64,000 nt of DNA from Prorocentrum cordatum (taxonomy: Eukaryota > Sar > Dinophyceae > Prorocentrales > Prorocentraceae). Within the stretch, counting starts at the first letter, position 1, and every line of letters begins with the position of its first letter. The stretch covers positions 137,112-201,111 of the forward strand of contig CAUYUJ010018567.1 in assembly GCA_963575745.1 (NCBI GenBank). Reading direction: 5' to 3'. The position numbers and the translations under genes were made by a program. The notes under the pieces are model-generated. The model was not told the DNA's origin, did not search any database, and saw only the letters and a program-made list of their open reading frames with translations. Positions 3,597-53,335 of the stretch are shown piece by piece.

Positions 3597-3977
3597 TGAG
3601 ATTTTTTTGAGTAAACATCAAGTCGGTTCCCGGAAGTGAACAAATACTAAACTAGCTCTAGAGAGCTGAACTGCTGAGGGAACAAAGTATACATGCCAAT
3701 GCTCGGCGTAAAAATCTGATTTCTCACAATGAATTGTCATATATCTTTCAAACTGGGCGCCGGCGGTAAACCGTCAACCTTTCTTTTTTGCGGACTTTGC
3801 GGTCGACTGTGCAGGCCTTCCAGCCTAGTCGGAAGCAAGGAGCGGGCGCATCGGGAGTAGGCGGAAGCCTCACCGATCCAAACGATCAGAGGCGAAAGCC
3901 AACTTTTATTAGGAGGATGAGAGGTCAAGCACACACACACGACAACGAAGGCATGGCGTGAGTGAGCACAATCAAAA

Positions 3978-6900
3978 TCACATCATATCCTGTCCGAAAT
4001 ACGCATGTACAACCCGCGGCAAGATCATAATCGTATGCTCAACGGCCGAGACCTCGGCATCAGTCACTGTTGAAGTTGGATCAATCGAGAGTGCCGCACT
4101 GTACACCTCCGTCCAAATAATCTCATGGCTGAGTGGCTGCCTTGAGAGCCTCGATACCCGTCCAACATCTATCCAGCACCCGACTCCCACGCCGTCGCAA
4201 GAGACACCACCATCGAATCCAGCTCTGATGGCACAAACGCGAAACACCTGTTGTAACTGAGGGGCGTGAAGCCCTATCCTATCTCGAATCACTGGTGGCC
4301 CGACACGGGCCGTGTGAGTGAGTACATCTGCACGCGTGTTCCATTCCCTATATGTGTGGTCTACAATTTCCCTCCCATGACAGGCAGGCCTAATTCCAAA
4401 CCTCTGACACATGTTGTCAAGTTGATTTATCATTCTGCTGATCCTATCCTGATAAGTACGATTGAGCACCCTCCAGACACCCTGCAGCCAAGACACCACC
4501 AGAAGACTGTCCCCAGAAATGTACACAGGGATCCCAAATGAGTCGAGGTCGTACTCAACCTCCTTCATATTTTGTAACGCAATACGTTTGGCCAGTTTGT
4601 CGTTGAAAGCCGCAGTGCCCTCTTGGGCCCCATAGGTGTGTAGGTCGTTTTGTGTGATGGTATGTACCTCCTGCAGGGCCCCACCTGTTGTACCGTACCC
4701 TTTTCTTTTCTGAAAATAACTCAGCATCGTCCGTGTACACATGTGTTCGCAGAACTGAACATACGCAGCATCTGTCGGCACAAAGGACTCCCACCATTTG
4801 AGTCCGTAGAATTCGCAGAAAGAAAATAGCCAGCATCTCTGGCCAATAGCTCGACCTGAGCTTACATGTCTCCTTTTTAGCTGCGAAGCCTCCTGGAAGC
4901 GAAACATACCCCGCAGGCACTCAGACGCATCCGTCCTGAGTCTGTCCCACAGTGGGCCGTATGCAACCGTAGTCATGTGGTGATCTCTCCACGTACGTTG
5001 CGTCGAAGATATTTCCTCATGAGAAGCAGTACACAACATAGAAATGAAATCTGCAGCGTCCTTAGCGGAGTTCCACACCATACGAAGAAATCGCTGCACC
5101 AAACTCGCAAATCCATAAGATCTAAATTGCTCTCTGGCCTCGTGGTACCGTCGTCGGTTCCAGTCCGCCATAGTCTCCTCCTCCCTCCTCGGCCGTCGAA
5201 ACATACGGCACAAACACCATCCCTCGAAGGCATTGAGCATGTGTAGCGAGGAAGTATCAGCAGTACATGTCTCTAGACAATACAACGCCATACTCTGCAC
5301 CTTGTCTTGATAACGACAAAACTTATCACGAACCGCTACCGCTCTGTTACGAAAGAAATCCGACTGTCCTATGAAACAAGCACGAGCCTCCTTGATGCGA
5401 TATTCCACATCAGGATGAGCGGGCACTAAGTAGGTGGAGAAAATCTCATGACCCAATACTTTCATTCTGCACACACGTCGAAGTCTAAAGTCATGATATC
5501 TCGAGCACGCAGGTATACACAAATCCTCGCTTGCAAGTATATGTCCGTCACCGTCCACTCTCGCATTTTCCCCACATGTCATGTACAACAGGCTGCTATC
5601 CTTCCATCTCATCCCCCAGTCATGTAGTGGTAGTGTTAGATCGTGCATCATCTGAGCCAACACAGTTGGGGAGGCAGAGACAAGGTAGCAGTTGTCCGCC
5701 CACACAAAGTGGTTCACGATTGTCCGTCGCTCATACTCACCACAGACGCCCTCCAGCACATACCCCACTCCCCTACTGTCCCAATCCCGAAATATAGGTC
5801 CCCACATGGCACATATGATAAGATTAAAGAGAAGAGGCCCCTCAGGGCCGCCCGTCCGTATGCAGACGTCCCAGTTGATGTCGTGAATGGCCATACCCTC
5901 GACAACTAACGACCCCGTAGTGCAAACCAGCGGTGGCAGCAAAGCATACTGGAGATAGGCAGGAATATTGGCATGGCACATAGCTCGCTTGGCGTTTTGA
6001 AGGCTGCAATGGTCGAACGCTTGTTTGATATCGGCGTTAGCGATATGGACCGTCTGATCCTTTCCCCAGATGTCCCCATGTTGAGCCAGAGCCTTGAGGG
6101 CCCCCACAATTTCCACCGTCTTACGTCCCTCCTGGAAGCCGTAGATGCCCAGGGGTCCCATGGGGCCAGCCCGAGACACAAATTGTTCGACCAGAATCAC
6201 CACACAAGCAGAATACCAACGGCTGAGACTGGTTTGCAGACAGAGGTACCGTGCATCTGTCAGTGATGTCAACCTCGGCAGCTTGGGCATGAAGGGGGTC
6301 CAAATCTGCCTCCAGTCCTGCGGATACTGCCGTGCCAAGCGAAATATCTCATCAAACATCCGAGCTACGCCACGCAAAGTCGCCCACGGCAATGCCTTGA
6401 GTATTTCACAAGGCAGCCTGTCGGGGCCAGTGGCACGCCTGGACTTGAGACGTGACCGTGCCTGGCATACCACCGCCATTGTCAGTCCCTCAGTGCAGTA
6501 CCCGTCACATAGGTTCTGTTGTGTATCCCTCCTCAACTCCTCCAACATCGCCATATCCCGTCCTCTGACCTCCTCCGAAGTATACCTCTGTCTGGTATGT
6601 GCTCTGATCTCCTCCACCCACTCCTCCCTGTCCTCAGATATCCGTCCCTGCACAATGAGGTGCTTGATACCATGACGCTCTTTGCGCCTGGAGGCAGGAG
6701 AGGTCCACGCGGCCAACGCCGCACGATACTCCCTCCGCAGTCCGTTGGCACGTCTGCGCAAGCTGGGCACGTCCACTGATGCTGGCAAAGGCTTCCGTCG
6801 CAAAATCTCCTGGCAGGCCGTGAGCCCTGCAGGCCTAATTGGCGGTAGTCCCCGCCCCGTGGTGGCAGTCGTGAATTTGATTTCCTCCTGCTCAGTACAG

Positions 6901-7949
6901 GCCCGAATAGTGGTCGACACAAGGTCCCCTGGAGAACAAGTAGTATTGGCATCTCCCAGGACCCGATCGATTTCCTTTCGCGCCATATTGAGGTCCCCCC
7001 AATTCACCGTCTTATAACCCGCCAAACTCTTTTCACGAGCTGCCGTCGGGATACGACGTTTGACCAGCTCAGCGCCTGTATCACTAAAAGTCCCCTGAAG
7101 CAGGCCATGGTCGCTGAGACGAATACGATTTGTCCTCCCCCCATTACTCATGATCGTTTCAACCGTCATCTTATCGATCACCCACGTCCTGGGAACAAAA
7201 ATGCAATCAAGAACCTTCTTACACGTCCCCCACCGAGATACTCCGTAACTCTCCCATGTGTGTAGTCGTCGTGGCAAGAACGAATTGGCAGCCTTCATCC
7301 CCAGGCGCCCTAGAAAGCATAGAACACGCTCGCGCAACTGTTGTCGTACGTCCCTCCTCACCCGCTGAGCACCTCCCTCCTCGCAAGTCCTCCTCTCCTC
7401 CTTGGTAGCACTTCCCACCGCCTCATAGACAGTCCCAGTGCGTGAGCACTGCAGCTGAGTTGATGGGGATAGCTCGACGTTGGCATCGAGCAGCACAGAG
7501 ACAGTCGCCCCCTTCCAACGGCTGCGCAGAGTGAGAATGACTGACTCGAGCGTGTCCAACGTCCCGCACTGCACATCTACGGCGTTCTCGACGCCGGGGT
7601 CCGGAAGATACGCAGAGGCAACTATCACAGGGGCACTTCCACTACCAAAGACCACCAGACAGAACCGTTCATATTGACATATTGATTCACGCACACATGT
7701 ACTCCACTCTTTGTTAAATAATAACCCACACTTACCGTCACAACTCACACGATATGATAGACCACACCGTCTGATATATGCATCGAATTTGCCTCCAAAA
7801 AGGTTCTGGCACTCCTGAACACCCCAGATGCAATCTCGCATTGAAAGGCTCCTCAGAATCTCATTCCCCTTGAAATTGGCCGACCCCGCCCGATTGAGGT
7901 TCCAGCTACCCAGTCGGATCCCCTTGAACGGTGTTCGGCGTCGTCGTCG
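3978..7949 (-). CDS. LINE A ORF2: APE endonuclease / reverse transcriptase / permuted RNase H
   Basis: This protein would nick target DNA and reverse-transcribe the element RNA. From the first ATG (7841) it has 1287 residues. The frame is open back to the UGA at 7950-7952, and the conserved endonuclease start GSWNLN lies in that upstream part, so the real N-terminus is probably not at 7841. Endonuclease landmarks are QEC, LLDANVEL and SDHGLL. RT landmarks are ADIKQAFD (motif A), RTGGPEGP (motif B) and FVWADN (motif C, where FADD is usual). The C-terminus carries RNase H blocks in the order GDS (D1111), RAD (D1172), FDGG (D1210), TDAE (E1263). That is a circular permutation of the usual order, in which the FDGG and TDAE blocks come first. 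Confidence 0.9.
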   Translation of the reverse strand, partial: RRRRRTPFKGIRLGSWNLNRAGSANFKGNEILRSLSMRDCIWGVQECQNLFGGKFDAYIRRCGLSYRVSCDGKCGLLFNKEWSTCVRESICQYERFCLVVFGSGSAPVIVASAYLPDPGVENAVDVQCGTLDTLESVILTLRSRWKGATVSVLLDANVELSPSTQLQCSRTGTVYEAVGSATKEERRTCEEGGAQRVRRDVRQQLRERVLCFLGRLGMKAANSFLPRRLHTWESYGVSRWGTCKKVLDCIFVPRTWVIDKMTVETIMSNGGRTNRIRLSDHGLLQGTFSDTGAELVKRRIPTAAREKSLAGYKTVNWGDLNMARKEIDRVLGDANTTCSPGDLVSTTIRACTEQEEIKFTTATTGRGLPPIRPAGLTACQEILRRKPLPASVDVPSLRRRANGLRREYRAALAAWTSPASRRKERHGIKHLIVQGRISEDREEWVEEIRAHTRQRYTSEEVRGRDMAMLEELRRDTQQNLCDGYCTEGLTMAVVCQARSRLKSRRATGPDRLPCEILKALPWATLRGVARMFDEIFRLARQYPQDWRQIWTPFMPKLPRLTSLTDARYLCLQTSLSRWYSACVVILVEQFVSRAGPMGPLGIYGFQEGRKTVEIVGALKALAQHGDIWGKDQTVHIANADIKQAFDHCSLQNAKRAMCHANIPAYLQYALLPPLVCTTGSLVVEGMAIHDINWDVCIRTGGPEGPLLFNLIICAMWGPIFRDWDSRGVGYVLEGVCGEYERRTIVNHFVWADNCYLVSASPTVLAQMMHDLTLPLHDWGMRWKDSSLLYMTCGENARVDGDGHILASEDLCIPACSRYHDFRLRRVCRMKVLGHEIFSTYLVPAHPDVEYRIKEARACFIGQSDFFRNRAVAVRDKFCRYQDKVQSMALYCLETCTADTSSLHMLNAFEGWCLCRMFRRPRREEETMADWNRRRYHEAREQFRSYGFASLVQRFLRMVWNSAKDAADFISMLCTASHEEISSTQRTWRDHHMTTVAYGPLWDRLRTDASECLRGMFRFQEASQLKRRHVSSGRAIGQRCWLFSFCEFYGLKWWESFVPTDAAYVQFCEHMCTRTMLSYFQKRKGYGTTGGALQEVHTITQNDLHTYGAQEGTAAFNDKLAKRIALQNMKEVEYDLDSFGIPVYISGDSLLVVSWLQGVWRVLNRTYQDRISRMINQLDNMCQRFGIRPACHGREIVDHTYREWNTRADVLTHTARVGPPVIRDRIGLHAPQLQQVFRVCAIRAGFDGGVSCDGVGVGCWIDVGRVSRLSRQPLSHEIIWTEVYSAALSIDPTSTVTDAEVSAVEHTIMILPRVVHAYFGQDMM

Positions 7950-9404
7950 TCACACCCTCCTGTTGACTTCCGTCTCGATATCAGCCTTCGTCTTAGTAAA
8001 CGCAGGTATGAGTTGATGCAACCTGTCGACAGTCTCACTCGACACCTCCCATGTCGCCCTTGTCGTGGTAAACTCGGCCAGAAGCATTGGCCTCGGAGCG
8101 GCCGTCGTGGGCACTGTCCATATAGTCGATTTGGGCGGTCCCATTTCCCCTCGCACAGCAATAACCTCTATACCAATCTGTGTACACATGCTCCGAATAG
8201 TGCCGCAGAATCTCCCCACCGCCTTAACGTGGTCCCTCTTCCACTCGGGGCACTCGACACTGACTTTGATCGACTCAGGGTTGATTACCTGCTTCATATT
8301 CTCAATGAGGCACTGTGGTGCAGCAATCTGGATTCCTGGAGGAGGCGCGGGGCGTTTAGCAGGGGGTACCGTCACAAGGTCGATGCACCGTTTGACCCTC
8401 CAAATAATATCCCTGTCGGTCCCTGGCTTGAATTTGATTTTGGCCGATCCGAACATGTAACGGCCAGCGTTAATGCGCTCCGTACCGTCAACACACACGT
8501 GCACACGATCATCCTCCGAAAGACAATGATTTGTAATGTTATCTATGAGCACCTTCACATCCTCCCACATGAGCATCTCCTGAGACCTCCTATCCCTGTC
8601 ACTCCAGTTGGTGACCCATCCCTTGAGTTCGGCATACGTCGGAGAGAAGTAGGTGGTTCCAGGAGCCTGGTATCTTCCCGTCCTGGTATAATCAGGCCTC
8701 GTCGAAGCGTCACTGGCAACGGAACCCGCACGAACCTGTCCCTGGAGTCCCTGGACGATCGTCTCGAGTCGATTATGTTTAGTCTCAAGCCCCTGAACGC
8801 TCGTCTCCAGATTAGAAATCGTAACACCCTGCTTCTGGACCTGGGCCTGAACGTTGTCGATTTTGGTCCCCTGAACTCCTATGGCATCCTGGATCCTTTC
8901 AGTGTTATCATCCATCTTGTGCATCATCTGCAATAGTAAACTCTGCATACCGTCTTTCCCCTCCAAGGCGGCCTTCCTTTCAGCAAGAACCTCCTCACGA
9001 TTGCGCTTCACAGGGGGGGCGCCGCCATCCACCGTCATGTTATCAGCATGCTCAGGCATTGTGTCGATGCACTGAGGTCCGTATCCCCACGAGTGCAACC
9101 ACTGTCGTGTCACCGTCCGTTCACAGAGAGGTGTAACAGATTCACTATCTGGAGTGGCGTCGGCAGTATTCAATCTTCCGTCCAATGGATAATCACCTGG
9201 GGTCTTCTCAATATCCTGAAGCTGTCTTTTACGAGAAGCTCTCTCGATAGCAGTATCTGGCTTCTGACCGTAATCCTGTGAGTACTGCAAATATGGCACT
9301 GTCGGTGATATATCCTCCAGCTGAAACCTTCTCGCAAGAACCGAAAAGTCGTGTCCGTCCGTCTTCACACACGAACAATAAAAGATAACAAGTGCAGCAA
9401 ACAA
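7950..9404 (-). CDS. LINE A ORF1: coiled-coil RNA-binding-type protein
   Basis: Up to 484 residues, ending in VNRRV before UGA (7950-7952). A heptad-like segment (about residues 150-235, with repeated LETSVQGLE-like spacing) predicts a coiled coil. It is followed by a charged domain whose layout, with a WVTNW-like segment and a later AVGRFCG-like segment, matches ORF1 of LINE B. The family role is to coat element RNA in a ribonucleoprotein. The start is uncertain: the listed start is a TTG, the frame stays open upstream, and the first ATG is well inside (MPEH, near 9060). The stop is in frame with ORF2, 36 codons before the first ORF2 AUG. Confidence 0.8.
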   Translation of the reverse strand: MFAALVIFYCSCVKTDGHDFSVLARRFQLEDISPTVPYLQYSQDYGQKPDTAIERASRKRQLQDIEKTPGDYPLDGRLNTADATPDSESVTPLCERTVTRQWLHSWGYGPQCIDTMPEHADNMTVDGGAPPVKRNREEVLAERKAALEGKDGMQSLLLQMMHKMDDNTERIQDAIGVQGTKIDNVQAQVQKQGVTISNLETSVQGLETKHNRLETIVQGLQGQVRAGSVASDASTRPDYTRTGRYQAPGTTYFSPTYAELKGWVTNWSDRDRRSQEMLMWEDVKVLIDNITNHCLSEDDRVHVCVDGTERINAGRYMFGSAKIKFKPGTDRDIIWRVKRCIDLVTVPPAKRPAPPPGIQIAAPQCLIENMKQVINPESIKVSVECPEWKRDHVKAVGRFCGTIRSMCTQIGIEVIAVRGEMGPPKSTIWTVPTTAAPRPMLLAEFTTTRATWEVSSETVDRLHQLIPAFTKTKADIETEVNRRV

Positions 9405-9538
9405 AGGAAGCAGCCTAGCTGGCCTCGAAGATGCCGTACTCGTCGATGGCAGCGATGGCTGCCGCGCCGTCTCCCCGCGACGCCGACACCCCCTGAGCCC
9501 CAGTGGGATCCTGGAGCCCTGGAGCCGAGATGTCTTGA

Positions 9539-10687
9539 GCCGGGGGACTCGTAGAGCTTCCTGACAATATATAATGTAAAAAAAAGTGTAGAGAACGAAT
9601 AATTGTTCAGCCCAAGCGATTTCAGACCTTTCGATGCGACAGCCGAACGCCCCTGATGTTGGATTGTCTTCTACACGAGCTCTGTAGCTCTCCTAAAGCC
9701 CGAGATACGTGCGTAAATCGACAGCACCTCTCAAGATGACTCGAACAATACGAATAGTTCGGCAAACCTAGCTCGAGTATCAGACCGAGTTCAGACCTCT
9801 GAATGCAATGATGGGACGCGTCTGATGTCTCCGAATCGATTCCTGTGATTACCAGCCCTGCAGCCCCCCCTACAGCCCGAGTTAAGTGGAGAAAACCGAC
9901 AGCACCTCTCAGGATGACTCGAACAATAGGAATAGCTTCGCGGACCTAGTTTGGGCAGCAGATCGAGTTCCGAGCTCTGGATTCGACAGACGGACGCGCC
10001 TGATGTCTCCGAATCGATTCCTGAGATTATCAGCCCTGCAGTCCCCCTACAGCCTGAGTTAAGTACAGAAAACCGACAGCACCTCTCAAGATGACTCGAA
10101 CAATACAAATAGTCTCGCGATTCTAGATCGGGCAGCAGACCGAGTCCAGAGCTCTGGATTCAACAGACAACGCGACTGATGATTCTGAATTGGTTTCTGT
10201 AAGCATCAGCTCTGTAGCTGTCATATAGCTCGAGTTAAGAACAAAAACCGAGAGCGCCTGTCAAGATGACTCGAATAATACGAATAGGTTTCCGGACCTA
10301 GCTCGGCTAGCAGACCGAGTTCAGACCTCTCGATGCAACAGGCGAACGCGCCTGATCATTCTGAATCGACACGGTGTGCTCACCAGCTCTGTGGCTCTTC
10401 TATAGCTCGAGTTATGTTCAGAAAACCGCCACCGCGTGTCAAGATGACCCGAAACGGCCAATCCCGCCGCAGTGCTTTTTGACAGTAATATCTACCCGAT
10501 CGATCTGAGATCAAGACGGCGAGCGGGAATAAGATCGAATATCACGGGAAAAATACTAGAGCTCAAACGAATGGTTGAATTTCGAGAACAAAATTTTCAA
10601 CCGACCAAAAGTCAGCAAAAGGTCCGTCGAGATTTTTCTTGCCAACTAGCTCTCCAGCGCCCCGGAACTGGCACCGGCGGTGAACCG
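9539..10687. repeat. Satellite mosaic, block 2
   Basis: This block resumes the M3 module cut by LINE A, then has three tandem copies of the 175-180 bp module (landmark atgactcgaacaat at about 9736, 9915 and 10090). It ends in an M1 module (hairpin arm near 10673-10683) cut by LINE B. No gene is seen. Confidence 0.9.
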
Positions 10688-13600
10688 TCAACCTGGTTTT
10701 TTGCGGTTTTGCGGGCAGTGAAGGCTCCGTCGAAGCCTGCCCGAGCCAAACGCCCAGCAGGTCTCAGCACGCACTCGGCCCCCCCAATGAGGCGCTCTAG
10801 CGCCGTCAGTTCGGCATCAGTGACTGTACTATCTCTAGGCAGGAGAAGGGCAGTCTCCGCAACATCTCTCCAAACTAGACCGTCACAGAAGGCAGCGGAC
10901 TGAGGCGAGTCGGGGGCAGCGGAATGCCGCAGGCGCTTGGAGCGATGTTCAGGATGGGGGAGAAAGGCAGCCTCGAGAAAGAAACCAATACCACAACCAG
11001 ACGCATCCACTCCGCCGTCGAAACGACCGCGGAGGGCAACAAGCTCATGATTCTCTAAATGATCGGGTGGAACAGGCCTCAATGTGTAACACTCGCGGCC
11101 TTCCCGCGCAAGATGTGCGAGGGCATCCGCCCTCTGGTTGTTCTCTCTGAATTCATGTTTGAGGAAGTCACGACCAAGGAAACTGGATCTAAGATGATAA
11201 CGATTTTCCAGCCACGCAATCTTATCCACCAGCTTATCGACTCTCTTCTGATACACGTTATTTCCCACCCTCCACTTCCCACAGACCCAATTTATAATAA
11301 GTAAGCTATCTCCGCAGAACTCCACAGGGAGCCCATCCGATACAACGTCCCAGACCGTCGCCCTTCCATTTAGAATGGCTAACCGTTTAGATAACTCCTC
11401 CGCCTCCGCTCCAGACACCTCCTGAGACATCAACTCATCCCAAGACTTCTTTTCCACCACGGAGTCCGTCCCCTTTCCAGAATACACGAAATACTCAAAC
11501 GCTTTCTCATGGCCACAGTGTTCCAGGTAGTCAGGCATCTTGTCGAGAAACGTTTTCCAGGAAAACTCACCGTCCTTCCACCACGAGGCCCCAAATAGAA
11601 TATGTGCCATATAACTCCAAGGTCTTCCCCCTGAAGCACCGGCTCCGATACGAATACGTTTCAGGGCACTGGCCTCCTTCCACGATCCCTTCTGCCTGAG
11701 GACCTCACTGAAGTCGGAACGCGCACCCTCCCACGATGGACAAGAACACAGCAGCATCCTTCTCGCGTCCCTCCAGGCACGGGCACCGATGGGAGGAGCA
11801 ATAGGGACAGCCAGCCGACGACGTTTGCAATCTTCACGATTCACATAAGCAGCACCCCAGTTTGTAGCATGATACTCCGCAACATCTTTGGCCAACAACC
11901 GCGAACGATGCAATAAACGTTGGACCGAACTCTGAAACCCATGATCGTGAAATAGCTTGCGGACCACATGCAAACGAGCGGGGCGCCATACATCCCAGGA
12001 CAGGCTGGCAGGTTTCGATTTATGACACATCCTCAACAAACATGTGCCCTCAAAGACATGTATTTTGCGAATCGAGTCCTTTTCCCACGTCAGCCCTTCC
12101 GAGCCGAAGAGCAGGGTAGATTGCACGATGGACTGATACCGCTTGAACTTCAGATGCCAATGCACCGCACGGGATCGAAAGTATTGGATATGCCCAAAGA
12201 ATGCCTTGCGAGCAGCGTTGAGACGACGATCCACATCGACATGCGGCTCGCGAAAAGAAACGGCGATGTCATTTCCCAGTACGTTGAGGACGGAAACCTG
12301 CTGCAGCTCGACACTGACATACTCATCCGCCCCGTCGGGGCCGATATCCCCAGGCATATTACAACGATGGATACTGGTAACGAACTTCCCAGGGGAGCAA
12401 CCAATAGCAGCAACCTGTAGGCTATCGAACTTCCAATCAAACTTCCAATGATGCAAAGCAAGAGTAAAGTCATCCAACTGTCGTTGAAAAGCTTCGGGGT
12501 TAAGGCCTGAGCCAATGATGTACACATTGTCAGCAAAGATGAGATGGTTTACCACGGCGGTCTCCGTTGTCTGGTTAGGGTTGATACACTCGTAGCCTAG
12601 GCCTCCCTTGTCCCAGCCCTGAACGATATCAGCCCACATGGCTGCCACAACAGCGTTCCAACATGCTGGGCTCTCGTTACCTCCCGTCCTAACGTGCTTG
12701 TCAACTTTTACCTCAGGGACCCCGAGACCCTCGAAGAGCACCGTGGAGACCTCGTCGGCAAGGGGTCCCAGAAGAGCCAGCTGGAGATACGGAGGAATAC
12801 CGAGTCTGTCAAACGCCTGTGAGATCTTCTGAATCGTCATATTCTGGAAAGCTTGTTCGACGTCCAAACTGGCGATCAGGAGAGACCGATCCTTTCCCCA
12901 GACGGCCGCGTGTTGGGCCGCACACTTGAGGGCCCCCGAGATCTCCCCACAGCAGCGCTCGGCCGCGAACCCGAAGAGCGAGATATGGGGCAACACCTTG
13001 GTACAGTAGGGATCGAGGACGACAAGGACCGACGACGAGTACCACTTCTTGATGGCACTCTCCACGGCAATACTCCTAGTAGCCTCCGAGAGACGGGTGA
13101 GCACTTTCAACTTTTTCGGCATCAGGGCAATGAAGGTCTGACGCCAAGATACAGGCACGGCACGAAGACCACGAAATATCTCATCAAAACGATCAGCAAA
13201 AATACGGACGGTCCGATACGGGAGTTCTTTGAGCACCTCCGCGGAGGTCCAATCTGGCCCTGCCGCCTTTGCCGTATGAAGACGAGAACGAGCTCGAAAC
13301 ACCGCTGAGACAGGCAGACGGGGAACATCCTGGGAACCAGCAGCCACGCGTGCACGCAGCGAGGCCAGAGAGAGATGGGTACGCTCACGCTCGTCCACAT
13401 CTGTGTAGCTCTGCGTGTGATCCAAGAGGGAGGCGTGCCAATCGACCCGATCCACGGACCCGTGGACGTTCTCTATCGCGTGCTTCTGTGTCCTCCTCCT
13501 CCCTTCCGAGAACCTCCAAGCCATCCATCTCCTATCGAACTTCCTCTTCTCCTGGTCCCTCCTCCTCCTGAGCTTCTTGAACTCCTCCGACGTCTTGTCC

Positions 13601-14682
13601 CCCTCCCACCTCTTCACTTCCTCCTGCAATCGAATAAGTTCAGGGTGCCGACGGGGAGGGAGCATAGACGAGCAAGGGGCAGTCGAAGTAGCAGACGCCT
13701 CACGATGACAACGTTTCTCAATCTCTCCGAGGCTGAGGCTCGCGTCGATTGACGAGTCGAGACGTGTCTGAAACGAGCAGCCGTCGTGCCAGGTCAGCGG
13801 CATCCATCTGGATAGGCACCGCACAGCCCGTGCAACGTATCTGGGCGCGACGACTGGTCTATCAAGCTGCAACTCCGTTCGCACCAATGCGTGATCACTG
13901 AACCTGCGAGTACTGCCCAACTCGCGAGGCCAGGACACCGAGGCAGGCGCGAACACGGTGCCACGAGATACAAGCACCTAATCCAAGACCTTCCCCGCCT
14001 CTCGTGCCCCTGTCCGATATCCGTACCATGTGAAATCTCTCTCCCTGAACGTGTTGCTGGCAATCAAGCTCTCCTCCATCATCCAGTCCTCCACCTTGAT
14101 ACGTAGTAACGAGTACCTCCTCCTCCTTTCCCTCTCCATCCCACCATCCCCATGACAAACATCGGCGCCTAGCAGGCCTGGGCCCGTCAAGGCGGTGCCT
14201 TCGATGTCCGTGAGATGTGGTCTGACTTCCACATTCGCATCTGTAGCAACAACCAACCTGAGAGAACCATGCAAGCCTTCCCAGTACCGCCTGAGAAGAG
14301 AAATAGAACGAAGACAAACATCCGTGATGTTGAGAGCCTCCCCCACTGAGCTGTCGGGAAGGTAGAGTGAGACGAAGATAACCCGATTGAAAAGGACAGC
14401 CACCCACCTGTCGCCACTAGACTGCTCACTTATTGCCGTTCCCCCACGGTGCAGTATGCCTGCCTTGCGACAGGAAGATAGCTGTGCAGAAACCCCCAAC
14501 TTAGCGAACCAGTCTGAATTAAAGTCGACATTCTCACACTCCTGCAAGCCCAGCAGGTCCCAATGGACATCGCGAGAGAGAAGACGCAGCACATTATACT
14601 GATGATTGGCGGCCTTTCCCGCCTTCTGGATGTTTTGCGAGGCGCAGGTGACGGAGACAGCACCCGAGCCCCGCGGCGTTTG
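10612..14682 (-). pseudogene. LINE B ORF2, interrupted by TAG in the endonuclease domain
   Basis: The endonuclease part (14682-13981) has LLGLQEC and VVATDANVEV and ends KVLD. An in-frame TAG (13978-13980) falls where LINE A has Cys in KVLDCIFV. The 1121-codon remainder continues with FSDHALV, the RT motifs (SLDVEQAF, RTGGNESP, LIFADN) and the permuted RNase H: GDS (D890), RAD (D951), FDGG (D987), TDAE (E1056). After the RNase H the frame runs out of the element into the flanking repeat, so the last 28 or so residues are host satellite. There is no AUG between the upstream UGA and the QEC motif. Confidence 0.85.
10688..10696. repeat. Target-site duplication, left copy (LINE B)
   Basis: The nine bases tcaacctgg abut the T-rich 3' end of LINE B and recur exactly at 16026-16034 on the other side. 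In uninterrupted modules they occur once, in the hairpin loop. Confidence 0.85.
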
Positions 14683-15741
14683 TCAACGACGGTTGACAGT
14701 AGCGAGCCTCGGCTCCATCGTTTCTGACGTGATGGCCAAACGAGGTAGCAACGCAAAGGCATCCCAGTTCTCTTTGATGATACGCCACTGGCCCGAACCA
14801 CCGTACTGGCCACCGGCGGTGAACTCACCCAACTGCTTTCGATTGCCGTCCTCCGCTGGGTCGGTCCACATCTCAGAGGGTGTAGCACCGCTGCCAGCCG
14901 TTCCTTTGAGCGAGATGTTGCGAAGACACGAGTCTCTGGCCCAGATCCCGTGGAAACGACCGATGGCCTGCAGGTGTGGTGTCTTCCACGGTGCACTCTC
15001 AACCCTGAACTTCACACGTGAGGGAAAGTTGGCACCATATCAAGTCATCTGATCCAGAAGCAAATTTTTCTGAGCCGCATCGTTCCAAGCATTTTCCCAA
15101 ATCGTCTTAGCGCCCCAAAGGTCATCGTTCTCAGCGTCCACATTAAATTTGATCCGAACACTCGCGTATGATGCACGATTACCCTGCAGACGACATGAGC
15201 CCATGGGGTCGACCTTAGCACGAAGAAGAGGATCTTTCATTTCCAGCACGGCTAACAAATTAGTGGCCAACCGGTAAGCATTCCTGTCAGAGATAGAAGT
15301 ACGATTACGCGTTTCAGCAGAAGTCCAGTCCTCCACCCATCCGTAAGCTTCCACGAAGGACGGCGCAAAGTCAGAGGGGGCACCCGAGCGAGTCGAAGCA
15401 CCCCCGAGGGAAGGAGAACCGTTTTTCATCTGCTGCTCGAGGGCCGTGATGCGCGCAGAATCAGCGCGCTGTTGCTTCTGGAGATCCACAACAGCCTTTT
15501 CCGTTTTATCCGTCTTCTCATGAAGAGTCTGAAGTAATTGACGGCTCTCCTCACTCTCGCGATTGGATCGATCATCTTTGTCAAAAGTCCATTCGAGGAA
15601 GGCCTTGAAACCTGAATCGCTAGATTGACTGAGGATCAACTGACGTTGCTGCAACTCTTTAGCTCTCTCCTCTGCCATCTCCAAATCTCGCCTCAGTTCA
15701 CGATCGTTGGCCTCCGCATCTGACATCCGAGCATCGGCCAT
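14683..15741 (-). pseudogene. LINE B ORF1, one internal TGA
   Basis: It starts at an ATG (15741). The first 100 or so residues are strongly charged heptad repeat (coiled coil), followed by a WVEDW segment that parallels WVTNW in LINE A ORF1. A TGA at 15040-15042 interrupts the frame after LLDQMT. The same frame then continues through AIGRFHG (LINE A has AVGRFCG) to a C-terminal VNRR immediately before the UGA at 14683-14685. LINE A ORF1 also ends in VNRR, plus one Val. The internal TGA is most simply a disabling mutation. Confidence 0.8.
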
Positions 15742-16025
15742 TGGTGCTGATAGAGTGCAACAGGGCGCTAGATGAATGAAGCACTGAATGATGAAATGTG
15801 AACGCGAAGCAGCACTGAAATCAGAGATGTGTACACCAAGAAAGAGTATGCCAGCAATGAATGGAGACCGCTAAATGAAGCACAGAATGGTCCTGCAATG
15901 AAGTAGCACTGAATGAATACCGCTGACCAAGACAGAGCGCGCCGACACGTGCAAAAAAAATGTACAGTACTCAGGCAAAACAGACACTGAAGCACCGTGT
16001 ACAGTATGAGGAACAAAAGAACACC
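15742..16025 (-). other. LINE B 5' leader
   Basis: This is the 284 bp between the 5' target-site boundary and the ORF1 ATG. It is rich in degenerate repeats of gaatgaagcactgaatga-like units and has no ORF. It occupies the place of the 5' UTR/internal promoter of non-LTR elements; no specific promoter motif is recognised. Confidence 0.6.
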
Positions 16026-16034: not shown

Positions 16035-17578
16035 TCACCGCCAGGAACCTCGTAGGGCTCCTCACACGCGTAAAGTGCTCAGAGTCGAAAGAGAGAGCTT
16101 CTGGAGGCATTTCTCGAAAAAATCAACATGTATTTTTTTCATGTCGACATGAAGTTGGTTCCCCCAAGTGTTTTGATAGTAAATGTGCGCCTGCAGAGCT
16201 CATATTAAGACGCAGAGCCCCTGATGGTCGTTTACAGGTGCGAAAAATCTGCTTTCTTAAAATAAATGGCCAAATATCTCTCAAATCTTAGCAAAAGCGA
16301 CAAAAAGTTAACACTTTGTCATTTCTGGCCGGGTCGGCCAACTTGGCGCCGGCGGGAAACCGTCAACCTGGTTACCGCCCGGGACCTCGTAGAGCTCTTT
16401 TCTTGCCCAGCTGCTCGGAACACGTGAAGCAAGCTCAAGCGAGAGCCAAAAAACTCTAAAAAACGATCGCATACAAATAGTTTTGCGGACTTAGCTCGAG
16501 AAGCAGGCTCTGTTCAGAGCTCTAGATGCTTCAGCCAAACGCCCTTGATGATTCTGTATCGGTTTCTGTGCGTACCACCTCTGTAGCTGTGCTACACCTA
16601 GAGTTAAGTGCAGAATACCGACAGCGCCTCTAAAGAGATCTTGAGAAGTACGAATAGTGTTGTGGACCTAGCTCGACTAGCAGAACGAGTTCAGGCCTCT
16701 CGATGCAACAGACGCAAGCGCCTGGTGATACTGAATCAGTTTATGTGCGTACCAGCTCTGTAGCTCCTCTGAATCTTGAGTTGAGTACAGAAAACCGGCA
16801 TCACTGGTGAAGATGACTTTTACGGACCTAGCTCGAGTAGCAGACCGAGTTCAGGCCTCTGGATGCAACAGGCGAGCGCGCCTGATCATTCTGAATCGGT
16901 TTCTGTTAGTATCAGCTCTGTAGCTCTCGAAATCTCGAGTTAAGTGTCAAGATGACTCGGAACGCAGTTGGTTCCAGCAAGTCTTCTGATAGTAATATTC
17001 CAGCTACGGACCTGAGAATGTAACTGGCAGACGCGGCATAACACACTACACGTGACAAAAATACCGGTTCTCAAAATGAATTGTCAAATATCTTTCAAAT
17101 CAAAGCAAAACCGACCCAAGTTTATCACATTGTCTGTTGTGGTCGGGTCGGCCAACTAGCTCCACCCCGCGCCGGAATTCCTCTAGCTCATCGATGCCGA
17201 AGAGCTCTACGAGGTATTTTTGGACTGCCAACGTGAAGTCGGTCCCTGGCTTCGCTCGGGAGAATTTTTCGACGGAATGAACTAAGAATTTGTGAGGTAA
17301 CTTCTGTAATGCCAAGCTTCGCTGTGCGCACATAGCAGCCCAAACGAATTGGTAGAACTGCAAAATCGGCTGAGCCAGGCCGCGGAAGATATGATCGCGT
17401 CCCTTTTCGACATTTCGCCAACTAGCTCCACCCTGTCGCCGAATTCCTTTAGCTCTTCTACCATCAGAGCTCTACGAGGCACTAGGAGTGCAAGCAGACG
17501 CCTGAAGTGCAAGCAGATAGCCTCTGATGGCATTTTCTGCAAAACTGGAAAATTGCACTGGCGCTGGCGGTGAACCGT
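16035..17578. repeat. Satellite mosaic, block 3
   Basis: It contains the remainder of the M1 module split by LINE B, another M1-type hairpin near 16345, degenerate 175-180 bp modules (16480-16950), and one copy of the 350-bp module (about 17150-17520) with the landmarks ctccaccccgcgccgg and cgactgagccaggcc-like text. It ends in the M1 arm cut by LINE C. No gene is seen. Confidence 0.88.
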
Positions 17579-17586
17579 CAACCTGG
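17579..17586. repeat. Target-site duplication, left copy (LINE C)
   Basis: caacctgg directly before the T-run that ends LINE C. The right copy is 19153-19160. The target position is the same as in LINE B. Confidence 0.8.
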
Positions 17587-19152
17587 TTTTTTTTTGGGTT
17601 TTCGCACCGTTCGTCCAGCAGGGTCAGCTGGCGGTGAGGATCTGTCGTGCCAAATGCACAACAGCGCTTGAGAGCGCCTCAGCAGCACTGAGTTCGGCAT
17701 CGGTTATCGTAGCACCTTCCTCAAGGCACCACGCGGCTTCGCACGCATCCCTCCAAACGAGGGGGGTATTGGAGGGCACAGAGTAAGGAGAGGAGGAAAG
17801 AAGAGGGGAATAAGGAGTACTCTTATTACAATCGTAATCGAGATTCAAAAGCCCGATCTGAAGCCAGAACCCACATCCCGTCCCTTTGCTGCACACACCC
17901 CCGTCGAAGGCACCACGACAGGCGATAGGTTGAAGATAGCTTTCAAAGTTGAATCTGTATTCATACTCATTGTAGAAGCAATGGCCCTCACGGGCCAGGT
18001 GTGTAAGCTCGTCAGCCCGTGTGTTATCCTCCCTATACTCATGTTTGTACAGATCTCTCCCCAGCCCAGAGCATCTAATCCCCAACTCATTAGCGTTTCG
18101 TTCCATGACATCAATACATTGATCAATGCGGCGTTGCTATTGTTTGTTTCGACACCGCCATCGTCCCGTCAACCATGCGTGTACTAACATGCTATCCCCT
18201 TTCATTTCAACTGCAAACCCAGGGCTGATGATGTCCCACACGGTTTGTCTTTCATTGATCGTGGCCAGACGCTTGGCCATCCTCGCGGCCTCTTTCTCAC
18301 TCTGTGCACGTCCCTCCTGTCCGATCTCCTCTGGCGGCGTACTCTGGATAGCGGTCCCTTTCCAATTCTGAACGAAATACTCAAAGGTCTTTGTTTTATT
18401 ATATGTGCATAATATATTCTGCCACATGTCGAGAAAAGCTCTGTATGAAGGAACCACAGCCTGCCACCACATAGTTCCGTATGATAATATATATGGATAC
18501 TGCCAGCTCCTCTGACCCACGCTCTCAGGTCCACTGCGTATTCTCTTGCCAGATGATGCCTGCGTGCGATTTGCATGCAGACGAAGACATTCACTCAGAG
18601 TATCCCTGCGCGTAGTCCATTCAACATTATACATCAGAAGGCCTCTGCGAGAATCAACATATGCACGATTCTCCTGAGATTGGGCCATACTGCATGCAGG
18701 AGGCGGGGAGACGGAAGGCTCAGAAGCAAGCACAGAGGTCGCCGTCTGACTCCCCGATATTGTACCTCCAAAACCCAGCCTCAATCCTGAGAGCCTGCGT
18801 CTTTTGAGATTCTGTCTATTGATGTCCGTTCTCTGAATATTGATATGTTGTGCCAAGTTTTGAGAGATAACCTCCAGTCTATGTGTCAAAGAATCGGCAT
18901 CCTGTGCAATATGTGTCATATTCTGCTCCAATGGTTGTGATGATGGTCCCTCAAATCGGACTCTTTTCTGTGAAGGCTCGGCCCCGTCGTCAGTCCTCGG
19001 TGTCGCCACGTCTGCGGTAGGTGAACACCGCGCACGTGGGTCAGAAAGAATATAATTGCGAACGCTCAGCATCATCGTCCAGCTCTTCCATGCAATCATC
19101 TGCACGGCCGAAGGGAAGCTCCCGCTGGCGAAGTGCGAGCGTACCTTGTGGA
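17587..19152 (-). mobile_element. LINE copy C, internally deleted (about 1.57 kb)
   Basis: This element keeps the 5' part of ORF1 and the 3' part of ORF2 but lacks the endonuclease and reverse transcriptase. It has a T-rich 3' terminus (tttttttttgggttttcgc on the plus strand) and an 8-bp target duplication. It must have been mobilised in trans or deleted after insertion. The intact boundaries at the same hairpin loop favour retrotransposition as a short, non-autonomous derivative. Confidence 0.85.
17624..19152 (-). pseudogene. LINE C ORF1-ORF2 fusion with permuted RNase H, TAG-interrupted
   Basis: The upstream part has a Pro/Ser-rich, basic ORF1-like N-terminus (DDGAEPSQKRVRF) and a short coiled-coil-like stretch. 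It then passes without a frame change into the ORF2 C-terminal region (YFVQNWKGT, ERQTVWDI, GDSMLV). A TAG at 18137-18139 replaces the Tyr that A and B have in VYQKR/TYQDR. The frame continues unchanged to RAD (Asp codon 18011-18013), FDGG (17903-17905) and TDAE (Glu codon 17693-17695). All four RNase H residues are present in the permuted order. Confidence 0.85.
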
Positions 19153-34991: not shown

Positions 34992-37900
34992 TCAAGATAA
35001 GGTAGCGATGCGCTTCATACTGCTAGCATCCATCATTTGGTACACGCGCACCTGATCTCTCTCAGCCCGGCTTCCAGGGGCTTTCCAAGGGGCTCCGCGC
35101 TCTTCCAATTTACTCTTGACGAAGGAGATGATCGGTTTCATCTGCTGTTGGCTCTGCGTATTGATGCCACCAACGACATCGGCGAAGGCTTCGTGGATCT
35201 CTTTCTGTGAAGAGGGTTTGCGACCAGGCCCCGGCTGGAAGGGTACAAGCCGTGTGACGAACTCTTGCCATTTCGCTGCGAAGGGGTTACTCTGCACCTC
35301 CAAAGCATTCTTCAGTTCCTCCACGTAGCTTGCGGGTTTTGGCCACATGCGCTTGCTGTTTCCAGTTTTGGCTTTTGTGGCACAGCCGAGGGTGCGGCAC
35401 CACTCAATGAACTCCACGGCGAAATCTTCCATCATGTGAGATCTTGAAACCAGCGCCCGATGGGTGGGATTGCCTGCTTCGTAAGGCAATATGTCATCGC
35501 CCGGAGTTCTGAACGTGCAGCCATAGTAAATCAAAGCGAACCTGCGTTGGTCTGGCTCGGCTAAGGCCTCGTCAAAAGAAGGGAAATCGTTTAGGATCAT
35601 GCGGAGCAACCAGTTGGTATCAAAATCGCGTCCACTTTTGTACTTAGCCATCGCGCTGATGACGCCACCACCAGTGCATTGCTTGCAAATGTTGTTGCAG
35701 AGTTTCTCTCCCTTCTTGATTTCATCAATGACTGCTTCACGACAGCCTTTGGCCTTGTAAATATCGTCTTGGTTTTTATCGCCCGACGCCGTGAGCATCT
35801 TACTGTTGCAAACAGCAATGTAGCCGTTGCTGGTCTCGCTGCCCAGTTGGCATGTACCACAAGCGTGTTCGCGCACACTCTTCTTCTGTCCCTTCCCATT
35901 CGATCCAGAAGGCCCCCATTCAATCAACAACTCTTCCAGACCTGCACGCAAGCCTGTCGCGGCCCCGACATCTTGCCTCAATGAATAGAGGGCTTCCATG
36001 ATTTTGTCTTCTGGTGCATCGCCGTCTAGCTGACCACCCGCAGGTTCATAGTAAACAGACCTAAACATAGGTCCCCTGCCCTGCCTCAGCATCTCCAGCA
36101 AGGTAGGGACGCAGAATTGCTCAACATCTTCGGGAGTTTTCGGCTGCTCCTCACACTGCAGCAAGAAGCTGGTGATAGCCCGCCCGGCGCGGTGTACATG
36201 TTCATCGGTGCATTGGGTGAAGCTCATTGGACTCTCTCGCGTATTTCGGTCTTCTGGCATTGGTGCACGTAGCTGCTGATCGTAAGGTTTGCGGAAGTCC
36301 AGCGTCACACGGTTCTTGAAGGTCATCGTGCCAGTGTTTTGTGAATCAAGGGCAGTTGTAGCAAATCTAGAAGGCACGCCCTGTAAGGACGAAAAGACAT
36401 TGGAGTGCACTGTGGGGTCCAGGAGGAAAAGGTCAGTTGGCTCAGCGCAGGCAACATATTTTACTTTGTTATCTTTCTGCTCTGGCACGATCTTGTACGA
36501 AACTAGCCTTTCTGCAAGTGCCTTTTCCATTTTTTCTTTGAGCTTGGCCTCGGCGCCTTCAGTGATCCACACTCCCTTTGACTCTTCGTAGAACTCGCAA
36601 GTCTTCCCAGAATAACTGTAGTTCAAATACGGGGCAACTGCGCGTGCAAAGAGGGCTAAGGGCCTGCCACCACGCAGGCTGTCGTTGATTTTTGATTTGA
36701 GCCATGCGACCGCCTTGATGCCGCAGCTGTGGGCAGTGATTTCCTCGGGCATCAAGGGGGCCCAGCCAGCATCGAGAGTGAGTCCAAGTTTATCAGTCAC
36801 GAATTGTTTGTAATCTTCGACGGACATGGCCAACGAAGATGTCTTGAGAAGTATGCCTTCGGAGCTCAGTAACTGGTTGGCTTCGTCTGCAGCCTCCCTA
36901 GCATTGAGAGAAACGCCATGCCCAGAGTACCCAGAGTACGTAATGCAGGAATCATATATGAAACCACCAAGGCGGCACAAGGGGATTCCTTGGTGCACTG
37001 TTGCTGCACGTTCCACCCATGAGCGTTCTCTCTCCTGTAGCTTCAGAGAGAGATAAGTGGTCTTGCCTTTGCGAGCATCGCACGCGGCTCGTTGTTCTGG
37101 GGTAGCCTCTTCGCACATCGCATCGGCAAGCTCTTCCATTGTGTTGCGCACAGCCACCACCTTTGATGGCACGGGTCTACCTGTTTGCTCCTCGAAGGCG
37201 TGGCCTCTAGAGCCATAGCCAGTAGCATTGTAGAGAGATTTGATTTGAGTGACACTAGCGCCTGTCTCGGCGGCCAGCGCTGCTCGTGTGGCTTCGATGC
37301 TGCCTGGTGTTTGAACATATTCCTGTAGTTCGCGACACGGTATGTTCCTGGAGCCTGCTTCTTGCCGAGCTGCACGCAAGTGCGCGACCATGAGGTCGTG
37401 CTCCAGAATGGGAACTTCACTGTCTACAAAGAAAAGGAAGCGGCATACTTTGGGCATTTGAAGGACAGACCGGCCAAGCAAACAATCTGGTACTCCTCTT
37501 GCTTGCTCGTTTGCTATAGAGGTTGGCGTGTCAGTTTCCTTTTCGATATGGTAGCCACTGTATAGGCGGGTGCTCATGGAAAGCTCGCGGGATACTCCAC
37601 CCAGTCGATAGTAATCTGTTGTGTGGATGACGCGACCTCCCTCTCGAGTGCGGGAGGCCCTTAGCTTGATGTACTGCACCAACGTCATTGCATCCATTTG
37701 ACCCCAGACTTGTGTCTTGCCAAACTCTGTGTTTACCAGAAGTTCTGCATTTGCGATCTGTATCGGCGGCGATTCAACAGTGACGTACTCCGTAGCTCTC
37801 CTAGATTCTGATTGATGGGTCGTAGACTCTCCAATGATAGGGTCCGACCTGCCTTTGCTCTTTCCTTTGGCTCTACCATGATCGCGCGGAGGTGGTGGCA

Positions 37901-38345
37901 CCACATTAGCCACTACAGGACGCAAGGTTCTGCCACCAATCAAGTACCCACAGGTGTGCAAATCAGCACGACAGGCAGGGCATTGTGGACGATCGGCAGC
38001 TGCGGCCACTAAGCATGCGGCGTGCATCTTCACCATGCAAGCGCCACATCGACCCTCTGCTCCAGGATACACAAATTCTTGGCAAACGCAACAAGTTACA
38101 TTCGATACTCCATCGGACGAAACAGTCCCTGAGTTGGACGGTGTCGCTGTCTCAGATACACGTGCTGTCTCCCTAGAGCCAGAGTCAGCATCGACATCCA
38201 TGGCATCATCCGAGTGACTCGTCTCTTCCTTCTGCGAGAGAGATGACAATCCCGAGACAGGGGCAGCTGCCATGGGCGACGCTGCAACCCCGTCTTCTTC
38301 CATACTCAGAGTATCTGTCACCATCCTAGAGGCTTGTCCAGACAT
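34992..38345 (-). CDS. D5-like SF3 primase-helicase with N-terminal RING/PHD-like finger
   Basis: 1117 residues, ATG at 38345, no intron. Residues 1-80 are Ser/acidic-rich and probably disordered. Cys/His ligands from C85 (CCVCQEF...CGACMVKMHAAC...CPAC) form a RING- or PHD-like finger. FLFFVDSE further on could be a remnant primase acidic motif, unproven. FYEESKGVW followed by a Lys/Glu-rich helix resembles the D5 N-terminal domain. The ATPase has GPSGSNGKG (K818, Walker A), AVIDEI (Walker B), KQCTGGG (about 886) and RMILNDFP before RRFALIYY. These are the landmarks of D5/phage-P4-type helicases of large DNA viruses, plasmids and transpoviron-like elements, where the protein opens and primes replication forks. 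The Walker A is slightly unusual, with GQK after GK. Confidence 0.75.
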   Translation of the reverse strand: MSGQASRMVTDTLSMEEDGVAASPMAAAPVSGLSSLSQKEETSHSDDAMDVDADSGSRETARVSETATPSNSGTVSSDGVSNVTCCVCQEFVYPGAEGRCGACMVKMHAACLVAAAADRPQCPACRADLHTCGYLIGGRTLRPVVANVVPPPPRDHGRAKGKSKGRSDPIIGESTTHQSESRRATEYVTVESPPIQIANAELLVNTEFGKTQVWGQMDAMTLVQYIKLRASRTREGGRVIHTTDYYRLGGVSRELSMSTRLYSGYHIEKETDTPTSIANEQARGVPDCLLGRSVLQMPKVCRFLFFVDSEVPILEHDLMVAHLRAARQEAGSRNIPCRELQEYVQTPGSIEATRAALAAETGASVTQIKSLYNATGYGSRGHAFEEQTGRPVPSKVVAVRNTMEELADAMCEEATPEQRAACDARKGKTTYLSLKLQERERSWVERAATVHQGIPLCRLGGFIYDSCITYSGYSGHGVSLNAREAADEANQLLSSEGILLKTSSLAMSVEDYKQFVTDKLGLTLDAGWAPLMPEEITAHSCGIKAVAWLKSKINDSLRGGRPLALFARAVAPYLNYSYSGKTCEFYEESKGVWITEGAEAKLKEKMEKALAERLVSYKIVPEQKDNKVKYVACAEPTDLFLLDPTVHSNVFSSLQGVPSRFATTALDSQNTGTMTFKNRVTLDFRKPYDQQLRAPMPEDRNTRESPMSFTQCTDEHVHRAGRAITSFLLQCEEQPKTPEDVEQFCVPTLLEMLRQGRGPMFRSVYYEPAGGQLDGDAPEDKIMEALYSLRQDVGAATGLRAGLEELLIEWGPSGSNGKGQKKSVREHACGTCQLGSETSNGYIAVCNSKMLTASGDKNQDDIYKAKGCREAVIDEIKKGEKLCNNICKQCTGGGVISAMAKYKSGRDFDTNWLLRMILNDFPSFDEALAEPDQRRFALIYYGCTFRTPGDDILPYEAGNPTHRALVSRSHMMEDFAVEFIEWCRTLGCATKAKTGNSKRMWPKPASYVEELKNALEVQSNPFAAKWQEFVTRLVPFQPGPGRKPSSQKEIHEAFADVVGGINTQSQQQMKPIISFVKSKLEERGAPWKAPGSRAERDQVRVYQMMDASSMKRIATLS
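38302..38314. repeat. Palindrome ATACTCAGAGTAT inside the helicase gene start
   Basis: A 13-bp palindrome within codons 9-14 or so of the D5-type helicase gene. It is identical, as reverse complement, to 40487-40499. Confidence 0.55.
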
Positions 38346-38555
38346 ATCATCATCATTGCCGATACTCGAAGCAGGTGCGTGGTTGCGCTGAGCGTATACT
38401 TTAGGCCTACTTTCGATGGCTTCGTGCTGGTCAAGCGCGGCTTCGATTCGCCGGCATCCACCTGACGTGTTGCTCAGATTACCACAGAACGTGTCGACAG
38501 AGCTGTCGCGCGTGGCTGCACTGGGTGCTGGAGATGGCGAATGTAGCCGTTTTGT

Positions 38556-44709: not shown

Positions 44710-44774
44710 TGTTGTTCAAGTGCTAAGACCACGCCCGCAAAGGGACGCAACTGCAAAGATTTGAGACTCTATGG

Positions 44775-53185: not shown

Positions 53186-53335
53186 GGCTACAGCGGAAGT
53201 CAGAGACAGTCAGGGACAGCGAGGGAGAGAAGCAGATGAGTACAAGCACTTGAGCCGAACGCGTGCGCATGATTCATGAGCACACAAAGATGCCAGTGCA
53301 GACACCTACTAGGGACCTGGCATGTGCACACACGT

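Follow-up and report, generated by a model that had tools for sequence, protein, structure and literature searches.

A probable circularly permuted RNase H domain at the C-terminus of LINE retrotransposons in the dinoflagellate Prorocentrum cordatum

From a 64,000 nucleotide stretch of the Prorocentrum cordatum genome (contig CAUYUJ010018567.1, positions 137,112 to 201,111 of the forward strand; hereafter, the window), we propose that the C-terminal domain encoded by the second open reading frame (ORF2) of a clade of long interspersed nuclear elements (LINEs) is very probably a circularly permuted type 1 (archaeal-like) RNase H. This proposal is based upon the fold predicted for the domain, the similarity of each of its parts to known structures, and most of the tests in which its two halves were swapped. 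In conventional RNase H, the FDGG-like strand and the Glu helix come first, followed by the DS strand and the RAD helix; in LINEs A, B and C of the window the blocks run in the order GDS, RAD, FDGG and TDAE.

LINE A is numbered here from stop to stop, which gives D1147, D1208, D1246 and E1299 as its catalytic residues (D1111, D1172, D1210 and E1263, an offset of 36, when counted from the first Met). All three domains lie on the reverse strand. In LINE A the part equivalent to the C-terminal half of RNase H (C-half; beta4-alphaB-alphaD-beta5-alphaE) occupies positions 4275..4544 (residues 1136-1225), with D1147 at 4509-4511 and D1208 at 4326-4328, and the N-half (beta1-beta2-beta3-alphaA) occupies 3984..4244 (residues 1236-1322), with D1246 at 4212-4214 and E1299 at 4053-4055. 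The LINE B halves are at 11080..11340 (D890, 11308-11310; D951, 11125-11127) and 10753..11037 (D987, 11017-11019; E1056, 10810-10812). The LINE C domain has approximate limits of 17640..18220, and its codons at 18194-18196, 18011-18013, 17903-17905 and 17693-17695 translate to D, D, D and E. Translation therefore placed all twelve residues where an earlier, sequence-only reading of the window had put them, and in the same permuted order. That reading also held that three copies keep all four residues; these are indeed present, but the LINE C copy is a broken one, since a stop codon separates its GDS and RAD blocks. Each block occurs once in A and B by motif scan, and neither Pfam nor motif scans found a conventional RNase H in the ORF2 of either element, in agreement with the claim that no second set of blocks lies upstream of GDS.

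AlphaFold2, using 13 relatives, predicted one compact domain (predicted local distance difference test, pLDDT, 87; predicted template modelling score, pTM, 0.81) with the element order beta4-alphaB-alphaD-beta5-alphaE-linker-beta1-beta2-beta3-alphaA. The elements carry their RNase H names, the catalytic residues of these enzymes being located on beta1, alphaA, beta4 and alphaE. In the model the matching elements hold D1246, E1299 (or E1304), D1147 and D1208, respectively. The five-stranded sheet and flanking helices of the RNase H type 1 fold are predicted, and the structure prediction suggested in the sequence-only reading thus returned an RNase H-like fold and not another one. Because the canonical order beta1-beta2-beta3-alphaA-beta4-alphaB-alphaD-beta5-alphaE is not followed, the domain is classed as a permuted variant rather than a canonical member; it has the attributes of a circular permutant, namely the same fold, joined old termini, new termini elsewhere, and elements present only once. 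Modelled alone, the N-half matched the N-terminal half of RNase H1 chains, with RNase H accounting for 44 of the 50 structure matches listed, and the C-half also matched RNase H1 chains by structure. The Z scores were middling and the two parts were matched separately. Conceivably, the halves could complement each other between two ORF2 molecules, as in a domain-swapped dimer; this would be compatible with a single-chain prediction, and the linker is merely about 20 residues long, but the compactness and confidence of the single-chain model (pTM as above) make it quite improbable.

With the halves exchanged, a four-sequence profile gave eight matches in the PDB, six of them to RNase H or related proteins (best E-value 0.016), and a twelve-sequence profile gave seven, including five to RNase H. 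The best of the latter, LC11 RNase H (E=1.2e-4), was aligned from helix A across the artificial junction to helix E; the sequence-only reading had proposed such a swap as a check, and most of the swap tests agree. In the natural order a three-sequence profile found no PDB matches, and a thirteen-sequence profile found four; the best of these (E=0.11) ran through the C-half only, and does not form a matched pair with the value for the twelve swapped sequences. Six further loci of the same genome that encode a conventional RNase H, including two near-duplicate pairs, served as a second comparison set for the profiles. The swapped four-sequence profile aligned with their RNase H domains over 136 columns at a score of 41.4, all four catalytic blocks being in register, versus 64 columns and a score of 33.0 in the natural order. 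Against the single locus L039, thirteen sequences scored 40.7 when swapped and 36.8 when not. When the columns of the N-half were permuted and the C-half kept, the observed score was reached in one of 300 trials; with the N-half alone, the observed score against conventional RNase H was reached in 0 of 300, and with 13 sequences in 0 of 200.

The only Pfam RNase H match in ORF2 of LINEs A and B was that of the LINE B C-half to RVT_3 (E=0.11, below the cut-off), spanning profile positions 62-122 of 123; the latter half of the model falls where an ordinary protein would match all of it. In test constructs of A, B and C the RVT_3 match was likewise limited to the GDS-RAD half, whether or not the halves had been swapped. 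Constructs of the homologue P0001 had no RVT_3 match in either order, and at E-values up to 1 such matches occurred in three of the 13 rows of the alignment of relatives (A3) described below.

Two results weigh against a permuted RNase H. Against the six-locus set, the 13-sequence profile scored the same whether swapped or in natural order (33.3 and 33.2), and the top Foldseek matches of the N-half by E-value were to COMMD9, LeuA and CapZ. Since three strands and a helix are a common arrangement, and since the FDGG-TDAE segment goes unrecognised by Pfam, this segment might be an unrelated domain with a chance likeness, leaving only half an RNase H. We consider this very unlikely in light of the column permutations, the preponderance of RNase H among the structure matches listed, and the fact that the segment found is the part absent from the GDS half, with the catalytic residues on the expected elements.

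Three rounds of protein searching, yielding first P0001, then 10 and then 29 proteins (6 already known), produced 34 homologues. P0001, a 1184 amino acid protein, shows 44% identity to LINE A and 32% to LINE B. A pattern scan located both AD.L[TA][HN] and [FYC]DGG in 24 of the 34, with the AD motif first in 23 of them; the lone exception, P0034, is an ordinary RNase HI of 141 amino acids, in which Pfam recognises RNase H domains in the usual order. The other ten, mostly fragments, lack one or both patterns, though P0012 among them is permuted by eye. The permuted order occurs in proteins from ENA, JGI and NCBI sources.

The genome search covered the assembly in which the window lies (4.13 Gb in 21,875 contigs). 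Its counts are minimum values, since the candidates scored were 35 of 9129, 150 of 5424 and 150 of 4807. L042 possesses an intact 1445 amino acid frame with the permuted order, and is the nearest fetched relative of LINE C (identity 79% in the final 170 residues and 50% in what precedes them; 31-35% to A and B). Judging from these alignments, LINE C is a relative rather than a member of the L042 family. The GDS, AD and DGG blocks of L043 are in the permuted order, as are AD, DGG and TDAE in L045, a relative of LINE B with GDN in place of GDS; L044 retains the first half only, after which its frame breaks. P0006, deposited as Prorocentrum cordatum, has a 98% match in the assembly over residues 21-240, and its family is 51-52% identical to the LINE A copies. 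An assembly or annotation artefact, for which we found no evidence, is hardly credible: the 35 LINE A candidates scored, of 9129, all gave full-length matches (34 without stops; 96-100% protein identity), and the order is kept by other families of the same genome, as far as these were read, and by the proteins of the three other sources.

Pieces with 80-98% identity to LINE A (39% for P0021) were also present in EukProt entries for Pyramimonas sp. (P0021, P0023, P0026, P0030-P0032). These identities suggest either that a dinoflagellate similar to Prorocentrum contaminated the entries or that transfer took place.

Alignment A3 comprises 13 sequences with 31-57% identity to LINE A, except for one row with 95%. 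The equivalents of D1208, D1246 and E1299, a second Glu (E1304), and the Arg of [FY]RE.N..AD.L are invariant in all 13 rows, and the GDS Asp (D1147) is kept in 11 of the 12 rows which cover it, being lost in P0006. Selection was measured in 28 equal-length LINE A copies (30 were fetched, two being excluded for length) with a mean DNA identity of 0.980. The ratio of nonsynonymous to synonymous polymorphism (pN/pS) was 0.159 for ORF2, 0.143 for the reverse transcriptase (RT), and for RNase H 0.056 in the C-half, 0.229 (0.07-0.88) in the N-half and 0.102 (0.05-0.19) in both, absolute values which lean low because the copies had been ranked by protein score. Purifying selection acts on the permuted RNase H domain of LINE A. 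Of the 28 copies, 27 retain the full set of four catalytic residues and the other has E1299Q; in one copy E1304 is replaced by Asp. These measurements, together with the divergence of LINEs A and B (32% identical in a 1083-column alignment), bear out the earlier contention that the permutation is old, relative to the families considered here, and was under selection; most likely, the swap arose once, before the split of the families seen here.

Could the RNase H fold have been kept without nuclease activity, as a module for binding hybrids or proteins? Copies with an altered catalytic residue do occasionally occur, and non-LTR (long terminal repeat) elements, which reverse-transcribe in the nucleus, often use the RNase H of the host, as described in the accessible portion of PMC5348765. 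Such a loss of function is nevertheless unlikely given the invariance of three catalytic positions in A3, the single departure at the fourth, and the purifying selection and near-complete retention of all four residues among the LINE A copies.

The permuted RNase H proposed here most closely resembles the archaeal and archaeal-like RNase HI of Halobacterium (4e19), Sulfolobus (3aly/2ehg) and the compost-metagenome LC11 (3u3g/4h8k), which have the same catalytic Asp/Glu set on the same elements, and which are the nearest sequences in the PDB when the halves are returned to the conventional order. They also share the Arg of [FY]RE.N..AD.L, which aligns with PREKNARADEL of LC11 RNase H and which, from this alignment, we take to be equivalent to the His of E. 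coli RNase H. Replacement of the conserved His by Arg (D-E-D-R-D) distinguishes archaeal-like RNase H (PMC4640811, in the part available), and the LINE domain has this feature. The assignment to archaeal-like type 1 follows from the catalytic set, the Arg replacement and the nearest PDB sequences. Unlike in these enzymes, beta4 to alphaE here precede beta1 to alphaA, the chain now being open between alphaA and beta4.

Archaeal-like RNase H in LINEs is itself not new: the sections available of PMC5348765 and PMC4640811 describe it for L1 elements of plants and for the L1/Utopia non-LTR elements of oomycetes. In Utopia the domain is upstream of RT, whereas here it is C-terminal and permuted. In the text available to us, 'permut' is absent from PMC5348765 and PMC3985635, no permutation is evident in PMC4640811, 'circularly permuted' refers to a scaffold in the bdelloid paper PMC5408684, and the dinoflagellate retrotransposon and genome papers PMC5890265, PMC10449503 and PMC11453091 do not show a permuted RNase H. 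The phrase 'permuted RNase H' returned no papers in the open PMC literature, nor was a permuted RNase H found there in a retrotransposon (subscription papers and Repbase lie outside this search). Within that literature, the earlier statement that no LINE lineage with this arrangement had been described stands; permutation of an RNase H-like domain as such, however, has been reported. The CIRPIN 2025 preprint (PMC12667903) includes, from AlphaFold DB, a single pair of Ribonuclease H-like domains related by circular permutation, which was found by structure and for which the part of the preprint available gives no family or retrotransposon name and no analysis of catalytic residues.

Unpermuted relatives were found in the same genome. 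L039 has a conventional C-terminal RNase H (RVT_3, above the Pfam cut-off). In L040 (G000:C13927:108247-111990) and L041 (G000:C13383:82480-86475) a normal-order RNase H (RVT_3, E=4.1e-21 and 8.1e-14, above the cut-off) precedes the Pfam RT match and lies, by eye, between RT blocks 1 and 2, apparently nested. By ORF2 profile comparison the nested group (2 rows, E=6.9e-9) is closer to the permuted LINEs than is L039 (1 row, E=4.9e-6). In all six permuted-group and nested-group proteins examined (LINE A, near residue 750; LINE B, near residue 481; L040, L041, L042 and P0001), RT motif C is [WF]ADN or WSDN, not the usual xxDD, whereas L039 has CDD. The conventional domains of L039, L040 and L041 share the RVT_3 type with the permuted LINEs, and L040 and L041 also share the [AS]DN variant of motif C; they differ in element order and domain position. 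No intermediate between the unpermuted and permuted states was found in the genome sequences examined.

We envisage that the chain enters the domain at beta4, ending in the GDS Asp, and would continue through alphaB, alphaD, beta5 and alphaE, which carries the RAD Asp. The linker would then join the old C-terminus to the old N-terminus, leading into beta1 (FDGG Asp), beta2 and beta3, and finally to alphaA (TDAE Glu), which would close ORF2. The four acidic residues should meet as in ordinary RNase H, and would probably bind two metal ions and cut the RNA of RNA:DNA hybrids. Removal of the RNA template from the cDNA:RNA hybrid is the function of retroelement RNase H according to the portion of PMC5348765 available; following target-primed reverse transcription the permuted domain may likewise strip the LINE RNA, freeing the first cDNA strand for second-strand synthesis. 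A free C-terminus after helix A and tied old termini would alter the tether to RT, while the active site should remain. The swap might have originated by duplication of RNase H and loss of the outer halves, or by a template switch.

All of the LINE frames lie on the reverse strand. LINE A ORF2 (3978..7949; 1323 amino acids, stop to stop) specifies APE-like endonuclease motifs (SWNLN, QE, LLDAN and SDHGLL, recognised by eye, with no Pfam match), RT (RVT_1, E=2.5e-07) and the C-terminal permuted RNase H. ORF1 (7950..9692; 580 amino acids, stop to stop) has only sub-threshold Pfam matches, several of them to coiled-coil families. In the window copy, the one in which ORF1 was read, both ORFs share one frame with a single in-frame TGA (7950-7952) between them, and in all 28 equal-length copies TGA precedes ORF2. 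Since the first Met of LINE A ORF2 (residue 37) is downstream of SWNLN, UGA readthrough or a non-AUG start seems to be needed. TGA is likewise found directly before ORF2 of L042, and the frame ahead of it is open for about 80 codons or more. LINE B contains an ORF2 frame (10612..13977; 1121 amino acids; RVT_1, E=1e-06, just under the cut-off) and an ORF1 frame (15040..15870; 276 amino acids); a TAG directly upstream of the former breaks the endonuclease part, by eye. This frame crosses the 3' end of the element (10612-10694), so that target DNA encodes about 27 residues at its end. The broken LINE C extends from about 19.2 to 17.6 kb.

The 3' junctions of A, B and C, at about 3781, 10695 and 17585, abut the same target repeat (AGGTTGACGGTTTACCGCCGGCGCCCAG at 3753..3780, and copies at 10667..10694 and 17557..17584, all on the reverse strand). 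LINE A loci end in a short A-rich tail followed by this repeat, beginning with exactly AGGTTGACGG in 24 of 30 and with a version that is diverged by eye in six. An A-rich tail directly against one target repeat is as expected of target-primed reverse transcription. No LTRs were noted, though no separate search for them was made. The window holds 17 target sites between 298 and 27285, some of them uninterrupted, and from this layout A, B and C look like target-site-specific LINEs.

Elsewhere in the window, two long frames and a third frame showed features by eye: a motif resembling a superfamily 3-type helicase P-loop (42040-44715), a RING-like cysteine cluster (34992-38555) and C-terminal repeats resembling MORN repeats (51338-53209).

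On balance, we favor the view that a target-site-specific dinoflagellate LINE clade relies on an active permuted RNase H, in a genome which holds three arrangements of the domain: C-terminal conventional, RT-nested conventional and C-terminal permuted. If true, this would constitute a natural series in which a nuclease domain was moved and re-threaded within a working retrotransposon. The available part of the CIRPIN preprint gives 137,020 domains with at least one circularly permuted partner (PMC12667903); such pairs seem numerous in predicted structures, yet few are open to study as evolving enzymes. Here the unpermuted and permuted states stand side by side in one genome, and with numerous open copies that are almost identical, and several families that have diverged, the rearrangement is datable, selection measurable and the enzymology testable. 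Both the opening of the chain between alphaA and beta4 and the linker that joins the old termini have a bearing on RNase H folding and on its placement relative to RT. Since Pfam misses the permuted domain, such LINEs would be annotated as being without RNase H, and claims of LINE clades that lack the enzyme deserve rechecking with permuted profiles.
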